Shown here: positions 5,725 through 16,690 of the stretch, piece after piece
How the letters are laid out: each line of letters begins with the position of its first letter
How positions within the stretch are numbered: the stretch's first letter is position 1
Origin: Microcaldota archaeon
Lineage (GTDB): Archaea; Micrarchaeota; Micrarchaeia; Micrarchaeales; Micrarchaeaceae
Assembly (NCBI GenBank): GCA_028866905.1
Contig: JAGWHI010000007.1
Coordinates: forward strand, 1-39,222
Direction of reading: 5' to 3'
Length of the DNA stretch: 39,222 nt
Position numbers and translations under genes: made by a program
The notes under the pieces: generated by a model
What the model was told of the DNA's origin: nothing
Database searches by the model: none
What the model saw: only the letters and a program-made list of their open reading frames with translations

Positions 5725-5913
5725 TCACTTCCTCTTCATTAAGCTCCAGTCCAGGTACAGCCAGATTAGGTCGGCCACGAGTATTATGGCCCCGAGGGCT
5801 AGCCACAGCTTGTCGTAGTAGCTGGTGTACGTCCAGTAAATGTCAGCCACCAGTATTATCACGCCCATGAGCAGGGCGAGCATGGATTTGGTATTGGACT
5901 TCATCCCAGGCAC
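5725..5913 (-). CDS. Small two-helix membrane protein
   Basis: A protein of up to 62 residues, mostly two hydrophobic helices that resemble each other (VIILVADIYW and AIILVADLIW), which suggests an internal duplication, with a basic end (LMKRK). No family is recognised. The upstream start is a GTG at 5913; an ATG at 5904 is in frame and removes three residues. An AT-rich box near 5935-5945 on this strand could be the promoter and fits a nearly leaderless GTG start. It is followed after 10 bases by the secreted-repeat protein gene, so they are likely co-transcribed. Confidence 0.65.
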   Translation of the reverse strand: MPGMKSNTKSMLALLMGVIILVADIYWTYTSYYDKLWLALGAIILVADLIWLYLDWSLMKRK

Positions 5914-5990
5914 CTGTATGGTATTGGGAGCAAGTAATAAAAATACGCGTGGGCCGTCAGGCGGATGCCTGGCCTCTGGACTGCAACCCT

Positions 5991-5999
5991 CTATATACC
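5991..5999 (+). promoter_or_regulatory. TATA box of the NAC gene
   Basis: The sequence ctatatacc lies about 30 bases before the ATG at 6027. Archaeal transcription usually begins about 25 bases after the TATA box, which puts the start at or just before that ATG. This decides between 6027 and a longer in-frame reading that begins at 5949 upstream of the box. Confidence 0.6.
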
Positions 6000-6026
6000 T
6001 TTCAGACCAAAGCTTATCCGATACGG

Positions 6027-6374
6027 ATGATGCCGAACATAGACCCGAGGGCCATGAAGGCGATGATGGCCAAGATGGGGATAAAGACCACGGAGATAGA
6101 CGCCAGCCGCATAGTCATAGAGTGCCCGGACCGCGAGATCGTAATCGAGAGCCCGCAGGTCACGATGATAGAGGCGCAGGGTACGGTCAGCTTCCAGGTC
6201 GCCGGCCACGTGACGGAGCGCCAGAAGGACGTCTCCGTAGAGATAACGGATGATGACATCAGGCTTGTCAGCGAGAAGACTGGAGTAAGCGACCTCGACA
6301 GGGTCAGGAAGGCGCTTGAGGAATCGAAGGGCGACATAGCCCAGGCGATAGTGGCGCTTACCGAAGGCTCCTGA
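6027..6374 (+). CDS. nac: Nascent polypeptide-associated complex protein (archaeal NAC)
   Basis: A 115-residue protein that matches the single archaeal NAC subunit, a homodimeric chaperone that binds ribosomes and nascent chains near the exit tunnel. It begins PNIDPRAMKAMMAKMGIK, as archaeal NACs do. A beta-barrel NAC domain (about residues 20-70, with VIECPDREIVIESPQVTMI) follows, and it ends in a UBA domain (about 75-115: VSEKTGVSDLDRVRKAL..GDIAQAIVAL). The start at 6027 is preferred over 5949 because a TATA box lies between them. The gene is monocistronic and meets the DUF424 gene end to end, with no bases between the stops. Confidence 0.93.
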   Translation: MMPNIDPRAMKAMMAKMGIKTTEIDASRIVIECPDREIVIESPQVTMIEAQGTVSFQVAGHVTERQKDVSVEITDDDIRLVSEKTGVSDLDRVRKALEESKGDIAQAIVALTEGS

Positions 6375-6689
6375 TCAGATTATCTTGTAGGCGTGCGCGT
6401 ACGGCACGCCGGATATGCGCTTCACGTTGTCCTTGTGTATTAGCGATACCGCCATCGCGATGCCTACAGACTCCTTGCCAACTATGTTGGCCGAGTATAT
6501 CTCCCCGAGGTGCTCCTCCAGCCTCTTGCTTGCCTGGTTCTGGTTGAGCAGGTCGCCCTTGTAGAAAGAGGCGTACGACTTCACGTCAATCGTTACGTCG
6601 CCCTCCTCGAGCACGGAGTCTATCAGCTCCTTGTCGCACATCCCTATGACGCTGCCGTGCTCCGACTTGTGCACCTTCAAGTAGATCAT
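6375..6689 (-). CDS. DUF424 family protein
   Basis: A 104-residue protein of the archaeal DUF424/COG2412 family. It has the usual start (MIYLKVHKSEHGSVIGMCD), a central TIDVKSYASFYKGDLL strand-helix segment and a C-terminal NIVGKESVGIAMAV...V...GVPYAHAY ending. The family is widespread in archaea and of unknown function, often near translation genes. It starts 4 bases after the stop of the family-2 glycosyltransferase on the same strand, so it is probably the second gene of that operon. There are no membrane segments, so it is cytoplasmic. Confidence 0.9.
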   Translation of the reverse strand: MIYLKVHKSEHGSVIGMCDKELIDSVLEEGDVTIDVKSYASFYKGDLLNQNQASKRLEEHLGEIYSANIVGKESVGIAMAVSLIHKDNVKRISGVPYAHAYKII

Positions 6690-6693
6690 GCGC

Positions 6694-8232
6694 TCAGCCG
6701 TATTTGTAGAGCAGGACCGTTGTCAGCGAGTACATGATCCCGTACGCGAACAGCCAGACGCCGCCGGTCAGGTTGTTTATCACTATCGCAACGTAGCCGA
6801 GTATGAACAGGAACGCTGAGAACGCCACCTCCATCTTCGTGTTCAGCAGCGAGAACGCCAGGTTGCTCTTCTCTGTCTTCGTCCTGTTCCAGTGTATGCC
6901 CGGCTCCTTCTTGAGCACAGCGGCAACCGCTGCCTTCGCCCTTACTATAGCGAGAGCGAAGTTGAGCGCGAAGACCATGAAGCCCTTGGATATCGACTTG
7001 AAGTAGAACTTGGTAAGCATGACCGGAACGAGCAGGGACAGTATGAACGCGGCAGCGCCGAACACCTCCAGATATCCGACTATCGATGTTCCTGTCACGA
7101 ACTGCTGCAGGGTGACGTGGAGTATCGGTATGGACGAGAACACTATAAGCACCGACACGAGCGTGAACAGCAGGAGCATGACAGACAGGTAGTTGAGGCC
7201 GAAGCCGTGTATCCTGTAGTCCATGTTCGACAGCGCAGACAGGCTCTCCAGCTTCTTGGAGTTCCGCATGAAGTAGCCGAGGAACTGGGTGTCGCCGTAG
7301 TTGTAGCGCCACTGCTGCTTTATCAGCGACGTAAAGGTGAGTATCGGCCTTCCGAGCGCGTATATCTTCGGCACGTACAGGCTCTTGTACCTGCCCTTGT
7401 AGGCGTCGAAGCTGAAGAATGTGTCCTCTATCACGTATTCTGGGAAGCCGCCGAGCTTGTCCAGTATCGACCTCCTTATTATGCCGCACGAGCCGGCGAA
7501 GATCGCAGTGTTGTTGAGCGCCCTTGACGGCTGTATGAACTTGAAGAAGAACGCATCGAAGAGCGCGACCGAATCGGAGAAGAAAGTCCCCTTGTGGTAA
7601 CTCTTCTCGGTCTGCAGGTAGGAGAGTTTCCCGTCCTGGAAGTACGGGAGCAGCTCCATCAGGAAGTTACGGTCGGTGAGCATCTCGTCTGAATCGAAGA
7701 TCGCTATGAACTCCTCCTTCGACACCTTGAGCATGTTGTTGAGCGCGCCGGCCTTGTATCCCTGCCTGGTGTCCCTGTGCAGGAATGCTATGCCGTGCCT
7801 CTTGGCGAAAGCCCTCAGGCTCTCCACAATCTCCGGATTTGTCGAATCGTCGAGGAAGTAGAACTTGACCTTGCTGCGCGGATAGTTCATCTTCATCAGG
7901 CCGAGCGCGTTCCTCTTAACCTCTTCCGGATCCTCGTTGTATATCGGGACCGCGACCGCGACTGACGGCAGCCTGCCGATCGGCTTCAGCCCCTCCTCTA
8001 CCTGGCTTATGTACCTGGAGTAGAAGTACGACCTGTAGTAATACATTGCGGCGAAGCCGTTGAACAGCGCGGCCACTATGGAAAGCAGCAGGAAGAAGCA
8101 TCCGACCACCAGCATGTACGTGTCGGTGGCAACCATGAATATGTATATCGAGAACCCGAGGCCGGCGACAGCGAGGATGCAGAAGAGGATTACGGTAAAT
8201 AGCCTTAACGCCAGTTCCCTTGTTGGTTTCAT
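6694..8232 (-). CDS. Membrane glycosyltransferase family 2 (processive, BcsA-like)
   Basis: A 512-residue protein with two N-terminal membrane helices (about residues 10-65), a cytoplasmic GT-A domain and four or more C-terminal helices. The GT2 motifs are present: DDST at 128-131 (nucleotide), DSD at 180-182 (metal-binding DxD), VIED ending at 270 (catalytic base) and QQWRY at 306-310, the Q-x-x-R-W-like motif of processive synthases such as cellulose and hyaluronan synthase. It probably polymerises and exports a surface polysaccharide; the sugar is unknown. The start at 8232 is chosen because the upstream ATG at 8301 overlaps a TATA-like box (cttaaatg). DUF424 follows in the same operon. 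Confidence 0.9.
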   Translation of the reverse strand: MKPTRELALRLFTVILFCILAVAGLGFSIYIFMVATDTYMLVVGCFFLLLSIVAALFNGFAAMYYYRSYFYSRYISQVEEGLKPIGRLPSVAVAVPIYNEDPEEVKRNALGLMKMNYPRSKVKFYFLDDSTNPEIVESLRAFAKRHGIAFLHRDTRQGYKAGALNNMLKVSKEEFIAIFDSDEMLTDRNFLMELLPYFQDGKLSYLQTEKSYHKGTFFSDSVALFDAFFFKFIQPSRALNNTAIFAGSCGIIRRSILDKLGGFPEYVIEDTFFSFDAYKGRYKSLYVPKIYALGRPILTFTSLIKQQWRYNYGDTQFLGYFMRNSKKLESLSALSNMDYRIHGFGLNYLSVMLLLFTLVSVLIVFSSIPILHVTLQQFVTGTSIVGYLEVFGAAAFILSLLVPVMLTKFYFKSISKGFMVFALNFALAIVRAKAAVAAVLKKEPGIHWNRTKTEKSNLAFSLLNTKMEVAFSAFLFILGYVAIVINNLTGGVWLFAYGIMYSLTTVLLYKYG

Positions 8233-8375: not shown

Positions 8376-8459
8376 GCCAGGGTGGCGGAATCCGGTAACG
8401 CGCCAGACTCGAGATCTGGTTTCCGCAAGGAAGTTAGGGTTCAAATCCCTACCCTGGCG
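8376..8459 (+). tRNA. tRNA-Ser (anticodon CGA)
   Basis: An 84-nucleotide class II tRNA. The acceptor stem pairs GCCAGGG (8376-8382) with CCCTGGC (8452-8458), followed by discriminator G at 8459; CCA is not encoded. The D arm carries the A-box TGGCGGAATCCGGTA. The anticodon stem CCAGA/TCTGG encloses loop CTCGAGA, giving anticodon CGA, which reads UCG. A long variable arm and a T arm (TAGGG TTCAAAT CCCTA) are present, and the G discriminator with the long variable arm both fit serine. There is no intron. A pyrimidine-rich run (cttccttctttt, about 8460-8472) just after it may serve as terminator. Confidence 0.97.
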
Positions 8460-8470
8460 CTTCCTTCTTT

Positions 8471-8992
8471 TCAGCGCTTCTCGGGCTCCCAGCCTATCGC
8501 CTTCTCGTTCTCGACAAGTATCTGGAAGAGCGAGTGCATCTCGGATATCGCGATGCGGTCCGGGGCTATCCCTATCGACCTGACTATCTTCGCTATCGCG
8601 TCGTCGGTGGGCTGCTTTCCCATGGCCACCAGCAGGTAGTGGGCGTATATGTAGATCAGATGGCTCCTTATGCCTGCCTTGAGCACCGCGTCTATAAGCT
8701 CGACCTTGGGCTCCACGGCCATCGCCCTGAGCACATCGGACATGTTCTGCGTGTTTATCTCACGGCCAGCGAAGCTCAGGAAGCCGGCAACATAGAGGTA
8801 CGGCATTATCCCCTTCCTTATTCGTCCCTTGATGCCCTTGTCCTCGAGTGCGCGCTTAAGGCCGTAGTTCACTATGCTGGTCGATGAATCCGCTATCGCG
8901 CCTACTATTGCGACGAGCGAATCGTACCCCGCCTGCGAGGCTGTGGCCTCGTCGATCTCACGCTCGAGAACCGCAGGATCCAAAGCAGCCAT
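8471..8992 (-). CDS. Tandem ribosomal P1/L12-type dimerisation-domain protein (novel arrangement)
   Basis: A 173-residue, mostly helical protein with no named family that I recognise. Residues about 63-108 closely resemble the N-terminal domain of archaeal L12 (P1): YLYVAGFLSFAGREINTQN..VLRAMAVEP against the usual YxYAALLLxxxGKEINxEN..VLxAAGVEP. Residues about 112-160 repeat it: IYIYAHYLLVAMGKQPTDD..KIVRSIGIAP. The preceding 60 residues are a separate helical region. The hinge and acidic GFGLF-type tail that recruits elongation factors are absent; the protein ends GWEPEKR. In normal L12 this domain forms homodimers on stalk protein P0, so one chain here could mimic a dimer. A box reading gtatataaag near 9014-9025 fits a leaderless ATG at 8992. 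The function is inference only. Confidence 0.72.
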   Translation of the reverse strand: MAALDPAVLEREIDEATASQAGYDSLVAIVGAIADSSTSIVNYGLKRALEDKGIKGRIRKGIMPYLYVAGFLSFAGREINTQNMSDVLRAMAVEPKVELIDAVLKAGIRSHLIYIYAHYLLVAMGKQPTDDAIAKIVRSIGIAPDRIAISEMHSLFQILVENEKAIGWEPEKR

Positions 8993-9011: not shown

Positions 9012-9026
9012 CATCAGGGCTTTATA
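9012..9026 (-). promoter_or_regulatory. TATA box of the P1/L12-like gene
   Basis: On the minus strand the sequence reads aaggtatataaagcc, centred near 9019, about 27 bases before the ATG at 8992. The gap between this gene and the divergent AbrB gene (8993-9134) contains both promoters and nothing else recognisable. Confidence 0.6.
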
Positions 9027-9092
9027 TACCTTATTGAAACCTGGTACTCACATCGCCTTTTGCACTTGCATTACATTCTAGGAGCCGCGATT

Positions 9093-9134: not shown

Positions 9135-9401
9135 ATGGTTATGACAGACGAGGGTGTAAGGATAACAATCGGCAGGAAGCTTGTTAAGAGATATGGGAGG
9201 CGGTTCTTTGTTGTTCCCACAGAAAGGGACATAGTTTTAGTGCCAGTTCCAAAAGATCCCGTGGGGGAGCTAGGAAGGATAGGCAAAGAAGCAGGTCTGG
9301 ATAAATTTTCCATGAAGCAGATCAGAAAGTTTATATTAGAGGAAGCGAGTAAGGAGGCCCGATCAACAATCAGATTAGCATCTAGAGCAGGCCGGCCATA
9401 A
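9135..9401 (+). CDS. AbrB/SpoVT-type DNA-binding regulator
   Basis: An 88-residue protein with an N-terminal swapped-hairpin AbrB-like segment (VRITIGRKLVKRYGRRFFVVP, then IVLVPVPKDP) and a C-terminal helical tail (GLDKFSMKQIRKFILEEASKEA), as in archaeal AbrB regulators and MazE/VapB-type antitoxins. The cytoplasmic dimer would bind palindromic DNA. The start could be ATG 9135 or ATG 9141; the TATA box centred at 9110 favours a leaderless 9135 start. No toxin gene follows: the next gene, truD, is on the opposite strand. It is therefore either an orphan antitoxin-like protein or a self-regulated transcription factor. The gene is more AT-rich than its neighbours, which hints at acquisition. Confidence 0.8.
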   Translation: MVMTDEGVRITIGRKLVKRYGRRFFVVPTERDIVLVPVPKDPVGELGRIGKEAGLDKFSMKQIRKFILEEASKEARSTIRLASRAGRP

Positions 9402-14506: not shown

Positions 14507-16690
14507 CTATGGAGTGCAGCTGCCTATCGAGTTAATCGCTATAATCACGATTCCTGAGCCTCCAGCACCGCCGCCGTTGTTCGCCCCGCCGCCACCGCCA
14601 CCGCCGCCCGTATTAGGAGTAGCTGAACTTCCGCCAGCAAAGTATCCGCCGGCCCCTCCGCCGCCCAGGCCGCCTGCTCCGGCGGACCCTGCCCCGCTGT
14701 TCGAATTCCCACCGCCACCGCCGCCGGCATAGTATTGCGTGCTGCCGGAGATAGTGCTTGACAGTCCGGCGCCGCCGGGTCCCCCATTACCCACCCCGTT
14801 GAAGAACCCTGTGCCACCTACAGCACCGGCCCCTCCGCCACCGCCGCCGGAACGTATGTCGGTACTGGCCCCACCGTTGTTGCCCTGCCCGACGATTCCC
14901 GATGCCCCGTTGCCACCGCCGTTGGCAGCGCCGCCGCCGGAGCCTCCAGGGTAAGGCCCGATGCCGCAGCATCCGGAGCCTCCTCCGCCGCCGACTGATG
15001 TTATTGTACTAAACACACTGTTGGAGCCATCGCCGCCGCCGGCACCACAGCAGCCTGCCGCTGCTCCCCCTGCGCCTACTGTTACTGTATATGCTCCAGG
15101 GCTAATCGCGAGGTTGTCGTTTTCCTGGAATCCACCGCCGCCACCGCCGCCGGCAGCAGATGTTCCGCCGCCACCGCCGCCTCCCGCAACAACAAGTGCC
15201 GCAACATAGCCATTAGTCCCGGAATATGTAAACGTCCCGTTGGCCGTAAATGTGAATATCTGATTTCCAGAGGCAAAGCTTACCGACCCACCGGTCGTGG
15301 ATCCGGAACATGGGATTGTCGTAGTTGAAGTAGTGGTAGAAGTGGAAGTCGAAGTTGTTGAAGTACTGGTAGAGGTTGTCGTAGTTGTAGTGGTGCTGTA
15401 GAAGCCGGCAGTTTCTGTCGCAGGAGCTGTTATGATAAAGGTGTTCGATGCCGATGCACCGGCGTATGGGCTGCCGGTCCACCCGTTGAAGAACCAGCCG
15501 GGGTTGGTTAGTTCGTTTATAGTGACCGCGTTGCCGCTGTTGAACCATCCGTTGCCGGGACTTGCAGTGCCTCCGAATGACGGGTTTGCCGATTCTGAGA
15601 GGTGGTATTGGGTAATGGGCAGTATCACTACGGTTGTATTGCCATTGACGTTTATTATCCCACACTGGTTGGTGTATGTGACACCCCCTATCACGATGCT
15701 GTTGAAGACATATTGGGTGTTACCGTTCGAGCATGCGGGGGATATTATGCAGTAGTTGTGCGACGATCCTGTAGCGAACGACAACTGCGACGTAAGCTGC
15801 GCATAGTCGTAGTTTGTTCCGTCTATTGTTATTATTGGGGACGTGCCGCAGACGCTGCCGGAATAGCTCGGAAGCCCGAAACCTATGTACGACACAGGGA
15901 GGAAGTCGAGTGTGATGTTGGCAAGTGTACCGGAATAGTTTGCGGTCACGATGACATTTCCGACAATCGTGCTGTTGATGTACGAAAGAGCGATGCCTGT
16001 GGTGTTCGACCTGACAGGGTTCGGCGATAACGTATATCCCGAATGGTTAGTTGTAAGGTTCACTGTGGCCGCATTCAGCGGATAACCAAGGAGCTTCACA
16101 TGCACGAAGAGCGCATCCTTCTGGTTGTTAGCCGGCGGCCTCAGTGTGTTGGCTGTTATGGAAAGAGTCACGTTAGGATTCACCACTGGCTGCGCATGGC
16201 CGACGAAACTGCCCAAGAATGTTTGGTATGGCGCGGCTGCGCAAGAGGCCGCTGAGTTTGGTATATTCACAAGCCCGCAGTACTTCGCCTTAAGATATAC
16301 ATTTCCCGAAACGAGAGCACCCAAGGTCGTCGTTATCGGAAGGTTTAGTATACAGATTATCGATCCGCCTGCCAGAACGAAGTTTGGTTTGCATGCATTG
16401 CCTGTCGAGTTCGTGCCGTTCACGTTAGAGTATATAGTCGGGCTCTCGATCGGATACTCCTGGATGTTGGTGAGGTAGAACGCCACCACGGTCTGGTGGG
16501 TGGTTATGTTTGTTCCCAGAACCATGTCATTGCAGTACGCCCCTTGCACGAAGTTGCAGGACGACGAAGTGACCTGGCCTGGGGAGTTTATGTAGGCGTA
16601 GAGCAGGACTGCCGCAACAGCGATTATAACAAGAGCCCAGCCGTAGGTGACCAGATACTCGAGGGCTGACTGCTGGCGCATCAGGCTCAT
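14507..16690 (-). CDS. Pilin-anchored adhesin 1: constant stalk, Ser/Thr linker, Gly-rich tip
   Basis: A 727-residue surface protein. It begins with an archaeal class III (type IV pilin-like) signal: RQ then QSALEYLVTYGWA, with Q7 as +1 and E11 as +5, and a hydrophobic stretch to about residue 34. An extracellular region rich in N-glycosylation sequons and cysteines follows to about 356. An InlB B-repeat-like domain (about 358-428, with WFFNGWTG) is followed by a Thr/Ser linker (about 429-460) and a glycine-rich domain (about 461-727). That last domain has VVAGGGGGGG and YTVTVGAGG motifs like those of phage and bacterial glycine-rich tip domains. Residues 1-430 nearly match the protein at 26722-28995. 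An AT-rich box near 16716-16728 fits a leaderless ATG at 16690. Confidence 0.85.
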   Translation of the reverse strand: MSLMRQQSALEYLVTYGWALVIIAVAAVLLYAYINSPGQVTSSSCNFVQGAYCNDMVLGTNITTHQTVVAFYLTNIQEYPIESPTIYSNVNGTNSTGNACKPNFVLAGGSIICILNLPITTTLGALVSGNVYLKAKYCGLVNIPNSAASCAAAPYQTFLGSFVGHAQPVVNPNVTLSITANTLRPPANNQKDALFVHVKLLGYPLNAATVNLTTNHSGYTLSPNPVRSNTTGIALSYINSTIVGNVIVTANYSGTLANITLDFLPVSYIGFGLPSYSGSVCGTSPIITIDGTNYDYAQLTSQLSFATGSSHNYCIISPACSNGNTQYVFNSIVIGGVTYTNQCGIINVNGNTTVVILPITQYHLSESANPSFGGTASPGNGWFNSGNAVTINELTNPGWFFNGWTGSPYAGASASNTFIITAPATETAGFYSTTTTTTTSTSTSTTSTSTSTTTSTTTIPCSGSTTGGSVSFASGNQIFTFTANGTFTYSGTNGYVAALVVAGGGGGGGTSAAGGGGGGGFQENDNLAISPGAYTVTVGAGGAAAGCCGAGGGDGSNSVFSTITSVGGGGGSGCCGIGPYPGGSGGGAANGGGNGASGIVGQGNNGGASTDIRSGGGGGGAGAVGGTGFFNGVGNGGPGGAGLSSTISGSTQYYAGGGGGGNSNSGAGSAGAGGLGGGGAGGYFAGGSSATPNTGGGGGGGGANNGGGAGGSGIVIIAINSIGSCTP
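15310..15408 (-). repeat. Low-complexity Thr/Ser linker repeat in adhesin 1
   Basis: Short GTN and GAN triplets on the plus strand repeat in tandem, such as gtagaagtggaagtcgaagt, coding Thr and Ser runs on the minus strand. The repeat separates the conserved N-terminal part from the unshared glycine-rich end, and a similar tract lies at the same place in the second adhesin gene (27598-27712). Confidence 0.75.
15409..16690 (-). repeat. Duplicated adhesin N-terminal module, copy 1
   Basis: This segment matches 27713-28995 along its whole length. By eye the DNA is about 85-90% identical, with most differences at third codon positions. The encoded residues about 262-356 differ at only one position between copies. 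The match ends at the Thr/Ser linker. Confidence 0.85.

Follow-up and report, generated by a model that had tools for sequence, protein, structure and literature searches.

Two ribosomal stalk N-domains in a single chain: a protein family from one order of Micrarchaeota

The archaeal ribosomal stalk protein P1/L12 (NCBIfam TIGR03685; PDB 3a1y) combines a helical N-terminal domain with a hinge and an acidic tail, and the ordinary L12 gene occupies its position in the L1–P0–L12 operon. In eukaryotes, the P1 and P2 N-domains (PDB 2lbf, 4beh) lie on two separate chains that carry factor-binding tails and dimerize through an interface formed by helices 1, 2 and 4 (PMC4379515, PMC3794596). The micrarchaeal protein described here, P0001, has helices 1–3 of the archaeal N-domain twice. 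Compared with P1/L12, it has two units per chain and an extra long N-terminal helix, it lacks helix 4, the hinge and the acidic tail, and its gene lies outside the stalk operon. It resembles the eukaryotic P1–P2 pair in the fold of the unit and in bringing two related units together, but does so in one chain and without helix 4. A further system enters through relatives of P0001: archaeal KaiC-like ATPase modules (PF06745), which have been proposed as signal-transduction hubs (Makarova et al. 2017, as cited in PMC6393860). One clade of the family (clade B) has genes in operon with pairs of KaiC genes, whereas the clade of P0001 (clade A) has no such linkage. In the openly accessible literature, we found no description of tandem stalk-N proteins, of a P1/L12 N-domain outside the ribosomal stalk, or of a stalk-N adaptor partner of KaiC-like modules. 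The family is named in none of Pfam, PHROGs, PADLOC and NCBIfam, the last giving ribosomal P1 only. As far as we could check, therefore, the domain is known while the tandem architecture and its context have not been described before, in line with the first-pass annotation of this DNA, which knew of no protein with such an arrangement.

The window, that is, the whole stretch of 39,222 nucleotides analysed, belongs to a genome that totals 0.89 Mb over 31 contigs. P0001 (173 amino acids) is encoded at 8471–8992 on the minus strand; its coordinates had been given correctly at first pass, with the strand left unstated. The coding sequence has an ATG start and homologues, and homologous pairs of the family are under purifying selection (dN/dS about 0.06–0.33). 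All parts lie on the minus strand: a long N-terminal helix (residues 6–50; 8843–8977), unit 1 (residues 63–107; 8672–8806), unit 2 (residues 112–160; 8513–8659) and a short C-terminal end (residues 166–173; 8474–8497) that is modelled with low confidence. This is the layout of the tandem stalk-N family of one Micrarchaeota order, a long N-terminal helix and two stalk-N units in about 150–175 residues. The protein terminates in VENEKAIGWEPEKR, with hinge, acidic tail and C-terminal LF motif all missing, so that the absence of an acidic tail claimed earlier is borne out. A candidate archaeal TATA box, TATATAAA (9021–9028, minus strand), recognized from sequence only and located 29–36 nucleotides 5' of the ATG, suggests that P0001 may have its own promoter and a leader that is short or absent.

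The same-strand neighbours of P0001 encode TruD and a family 2 glycosyltransferase. Upstream, on the opposite strand, an 88-residue open reading frame (9135–9401, plus strand) is without a significant Pfam match and may, judged by eye, encode a small DNA-binding or antitoxin-type protein; a tRNA-Ser (CGA; 8376–8460, plus strand) is convergent with the end of P0001. No operon accounting for P0001 was found around it, nor any KaiC gene in the window, and the gene stands outside the L1–P0–L12 operon and away from ribosomal genes. Farther along, 14507–16690 (minus strand) encodes a large surface-type protein that begins like a class III signal peptide and contains a glycine-rich domain, and proteins with such starts recur near members of the family. 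Beyond the window, gene starts come from a simple longest-ORF caller. The presence of class III signal-peptide proteins, of a Hef-type helicase and of a T2SSE-type ATPase near some members mostly reflected synteny between related genomes or, by a rough estimate, did not exceed background.

P0001 consists of two L12/P1 stalk N-domain units in a single chain, as the first-pass annotation had proposed, and this is confirmed by concordant HMM, profile–profile, PDB-sequence and fold evidence. NCBIfam ribo_P1_arch (TIGR03685) matched P0001 at E 6e-8 with 32.9 bits, far below the curated equivalog cut-off of 100 bits, and matched 21 of 26 homologues independently; a Pfam search of P0001 returned no match. 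From the order's own L12 proteins, we built an HMM of 18 N-terminal domains; it scored 47.7 bits on P0001, with domains at residues 63–96 and 114–147, and detected both halves in P0001 and in nearly all homologues; shuffled family sequences (n = 6,200) reached at most 9.3 bits. This test was then widened to 968 proteins from the collected loci: the 100 members of the family all scored 10.7–67.1 bits, and the best of the 868 others 7.1. By hhalign, residues 60–106 matched L12 at 98.1% and residues 108–157 at 97.8%, and the halves matched each other at 98.0%, so that each half has the L12 similarity claimed for it. A search of the family profile against all PDB sequences had archaeal P1 as its first hit (3a1y, 2.2e-8), followed by eukaryotic P2 chains, which aligned at profile positions 114–158. 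A small, all-helical protein with a sporadic distribution might be a decayed or functionless duplicate of L12, or owe its likeness to chance among short helical repeats. We regard this as highly improbable and already contradicted by scores far above those of shuffles and of the 868 unrelated proteins, by the fixed architecture of about 100 homologues, and by the dN/dS of 0.06–0.33.

The AlphaFold2 model of P0001, built with 26 homologues, has a mean pLDDT of 90.5 and places a high-confidence helix at residues 6–50 ahead of two three-helix units, helix 4 of the P1 domain being missing from both. The original domain picture thus stands as to two L12-type units, with three helices each rather than four and with an N-terminal helix that it had missed. 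Foldseek aligned one unit to 3a1y_A with a probability of 1.00, an rmsd of 0.6 Å over 43 columns and 42% identity, at an E-value of 0.7; whole models matched nothing over their full length, and none of their E-values fell below 0.001, and the 3a1y match therefore backs the unit and not the whole of P0001. The suggested P1-like fold is thus predicted at the level of the unit. A clade B model likewise matches 3a1y_A (probability 0.97, rmsd 0.8 over 42), and clade B proteins have the same fold and two-unit architecture as P0001. With hhalign, the N-terminal helix showed detectable similarity neither to L12 nor to the P0 spine; given a probability of 0.3%, the idea that it mimics the spine was rejected. 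Since helix 4 belongs to the P1/P2 interface and is missing here, a P1-type pseudo-dimer is no more than a putative arrangement of the two units. Entropy in clade A is lowest in the helix-1 segments of both units.

To survey for the same layout elsewhere, we searched the genomes of 99 relatives and then 301 of the phylum. The tandem stalk-N homologues collected, about 100 with a fixed architecture, all come from one Micrarchaeota order, in both of its families; other members of the class reach L12-level scores only. When 84,980 species genomes were scanned with a pattern-based method, relatives turned up in Micrarchaeota-labelled contigs, in one Marsarchaeota-labelled MAG and in one 'uncultured archaeon'; the related contigs labelled Candidatus Micrarchaeota were all metagenome-assembled. 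Viral contigs and plasmids yielded no relative and PHROGs gave no match to P0001, so a viral or plasmid origin was rejected; a defence system was rejected for lack of a PADLOC match. The genome of P0001 encodes a second paralogue, P0002 (in L002; 34% identical), and keeps a normal L12 gene immediately following those for L1 and P0 (L003). Ordinary L12 is also kept in the 17 other genomes that we read, so the stalk role is already filled.

A tree of 92 units divides the family into clade A (37 rows, including P0001 and P0002) and clade B (55 rows), each with 99% support. Clade A genes are mostly single copy and sporadic (about 22 of the 99 relatives), have no conserved neighbours, and encode proteins whose sequences resemble L12 more closely than those of clade B do, scoring top on the L12 profile. 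Clade B genes are numerous in G061, G073, G228, G221, G246 and G227, with tandem runs of up to seven; G061 and G073 have about ten paralogues and double-length proteins of four units, a copy number unlike that of a stalk component. This expansion to about ten paralogues occurs in genomes of about 1 Mb. One locus (L084:9945–16333) has seven head-to-tail clade B genes, the majority of double length, and after them sugar-nucleotide-type genes.

Archaeal P0 usually has a C-terminal GLxALFG-type motif in common with P1. All 20 P0 proteins read from the order (L145, L126–L144) end soon after the spine helices without such a motif, and the tail is missing alike where clade A was detected and where it was not (20 genomes compared). 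P0 truncation as a change compensating for clade A was therefore rejected; nothing here points to co-evolution with P0001 or supports a co-evolved stalk role. These comparisons bear on the ribosome-directed function suggested by the first-pass annotation, in which P0001 would act as a tail-less stalk mimic, replacing an L12 dimer on the P0 spine and lowering factor recruitment, whether for capping, hibernation or storage. The factor-binding tail is indeed missing, both units retain the L12 helix-1 pattern, and a mostly single-copy, sporadic gene is what an accessory regulator could look like; the closeness of clade A to L12 keeps the ribosome a live rival for P0001. We nevertheless consider this function rather unlikely, since both units lack helix 4, which contributes to the P1/P2 interface, and since the sister clade sits in a KaiC rather than a ribosomal context; the distance of P0001 from ribosomal genes, the uniform P0 and the growth of the family, which reaches about ten copies in certain genomes, also speak against it.

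The ATPases encoded beside clade B genes belong to the KaiC family (confirmed as PF06745). Two KaiC genes followed by a clade B gene, touching or closely spaced, are the prevailing order, and such runs occur in G004, G007, G008, G032, G051, G080, G088, G209 and G245; a KaiC gene is immediately beside the clade B gene in G073, G082 and G227 and nearby in G041 and G221. Several genera, from both families, share the arrangement. Among the 99 relatives, at least two KaiC genes were present in 16 of 16 clade B genomes and in 15 of the 83 remaining genomes (Fisher p 2.7e-10), and a clade B gene lay within 1 kb of a KaiC gene in 9 of 16 genomes against about 1.4% expected per genome (p 2.5e-13); relatives are not independent, so both p-values overstate the association. 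The paired KaiCs fall into two separate clades, as a rule with one of each per operon. Such a two-clade pair beside a clade B gene can be seen at L109:5817–7773, where the KaiC genes occupy 5817–7282 and the clade B gene 7282–7773, and also in L096, L107, L108, L110, L111, L113, L123 and L125. KaiC pairs without a clade B gene exist in G016 and G024.

For clade A the same comparison was negative: KaiC was present in 17 of 22 genomes with clade A and 66 of 77 without (p 0.34; 99 relatives), and no clade A gene was found co-localized with KaiC. A link between clade A and KaiC was therefore rejected, and a role with KaiC cannot be assumed for P0001 merely from its sister clade. In most genomes, a lone KaiC gene precedes a gene for a protein of about 360 residues with one likely membrane helix (L106:8305–10122, L120:5365–8605, L117:2124–5421); the L120 and L117 loci additionally encode a protein of about 465 residues, and the lone-KaiC locus is distinct from the KaiC pair. 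Clade A might work with this lone KaiC, given that its sister clade is found in KaiC operons and that the genome of P0001 carries such a gene on another contig (L106:8305–9051). We think this quite doubtful: besides the lack of co-localization, 5 of the 22 clade A genomes (G017, G040, G072, G031, G044), including three with a completeness of 90% or more, gave no KaiC match.

On balance, we lean towards P0001 being the clade A member of an order-specific family in which the stalk N-domain has been exapted as a non-ribosomal adaptor, with clade B the partner of KaiC pairs. Duplication and fusion of the N-terminal domain of the ribosomal stalk protein most likely gave rise to the family, with the loss of helix 4, the hinge and the factor-binding tail and the gain of the long N-terminal helix. 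The two units and the long helix would together make one helical platform, whose conserved working surface would be the two helix-1 segments, PYxYAAGFLSFAGREI and SHLxYxYAYYxLLAxG, available for binding a non-ribosomal protein. Clade B most likely binds or couples the KaiC ATPase pair in signalling. P0001 and the rest of clade A would serve as adaptors in a similar way; their partner need not be a KaiC, since clade A occurs in genomes without any detected KaiC of this type. Weighing against this adaptor role are the position of P0001 away from KaiC and the missing KaiC association of clade A, the greater closeness of clade A to L12, which would fit a retained ribosomal contact, and the KaiC pairs that occur without clade B. 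A more far-reaching variant, to which we give only slight credence, would make the stalk domain the coupling subunit of a two-KaiC switch while clade A still touches the ribosome, the family linking KaiC signalling to translation in these reduced archaea.

Whether a tail-less double stalk domain contacts the ribosome can be put to a direct test with small soluble proteins such as these. For archaeal KaiC-like ATPases, clade B supplies a concrete candidate as partner. If the adaptor role of the family is correct, a core ribosomal domain would clearly have been turned into an adaptor within one archaeal order and linked by operon to pairs of KaiC ATPases.
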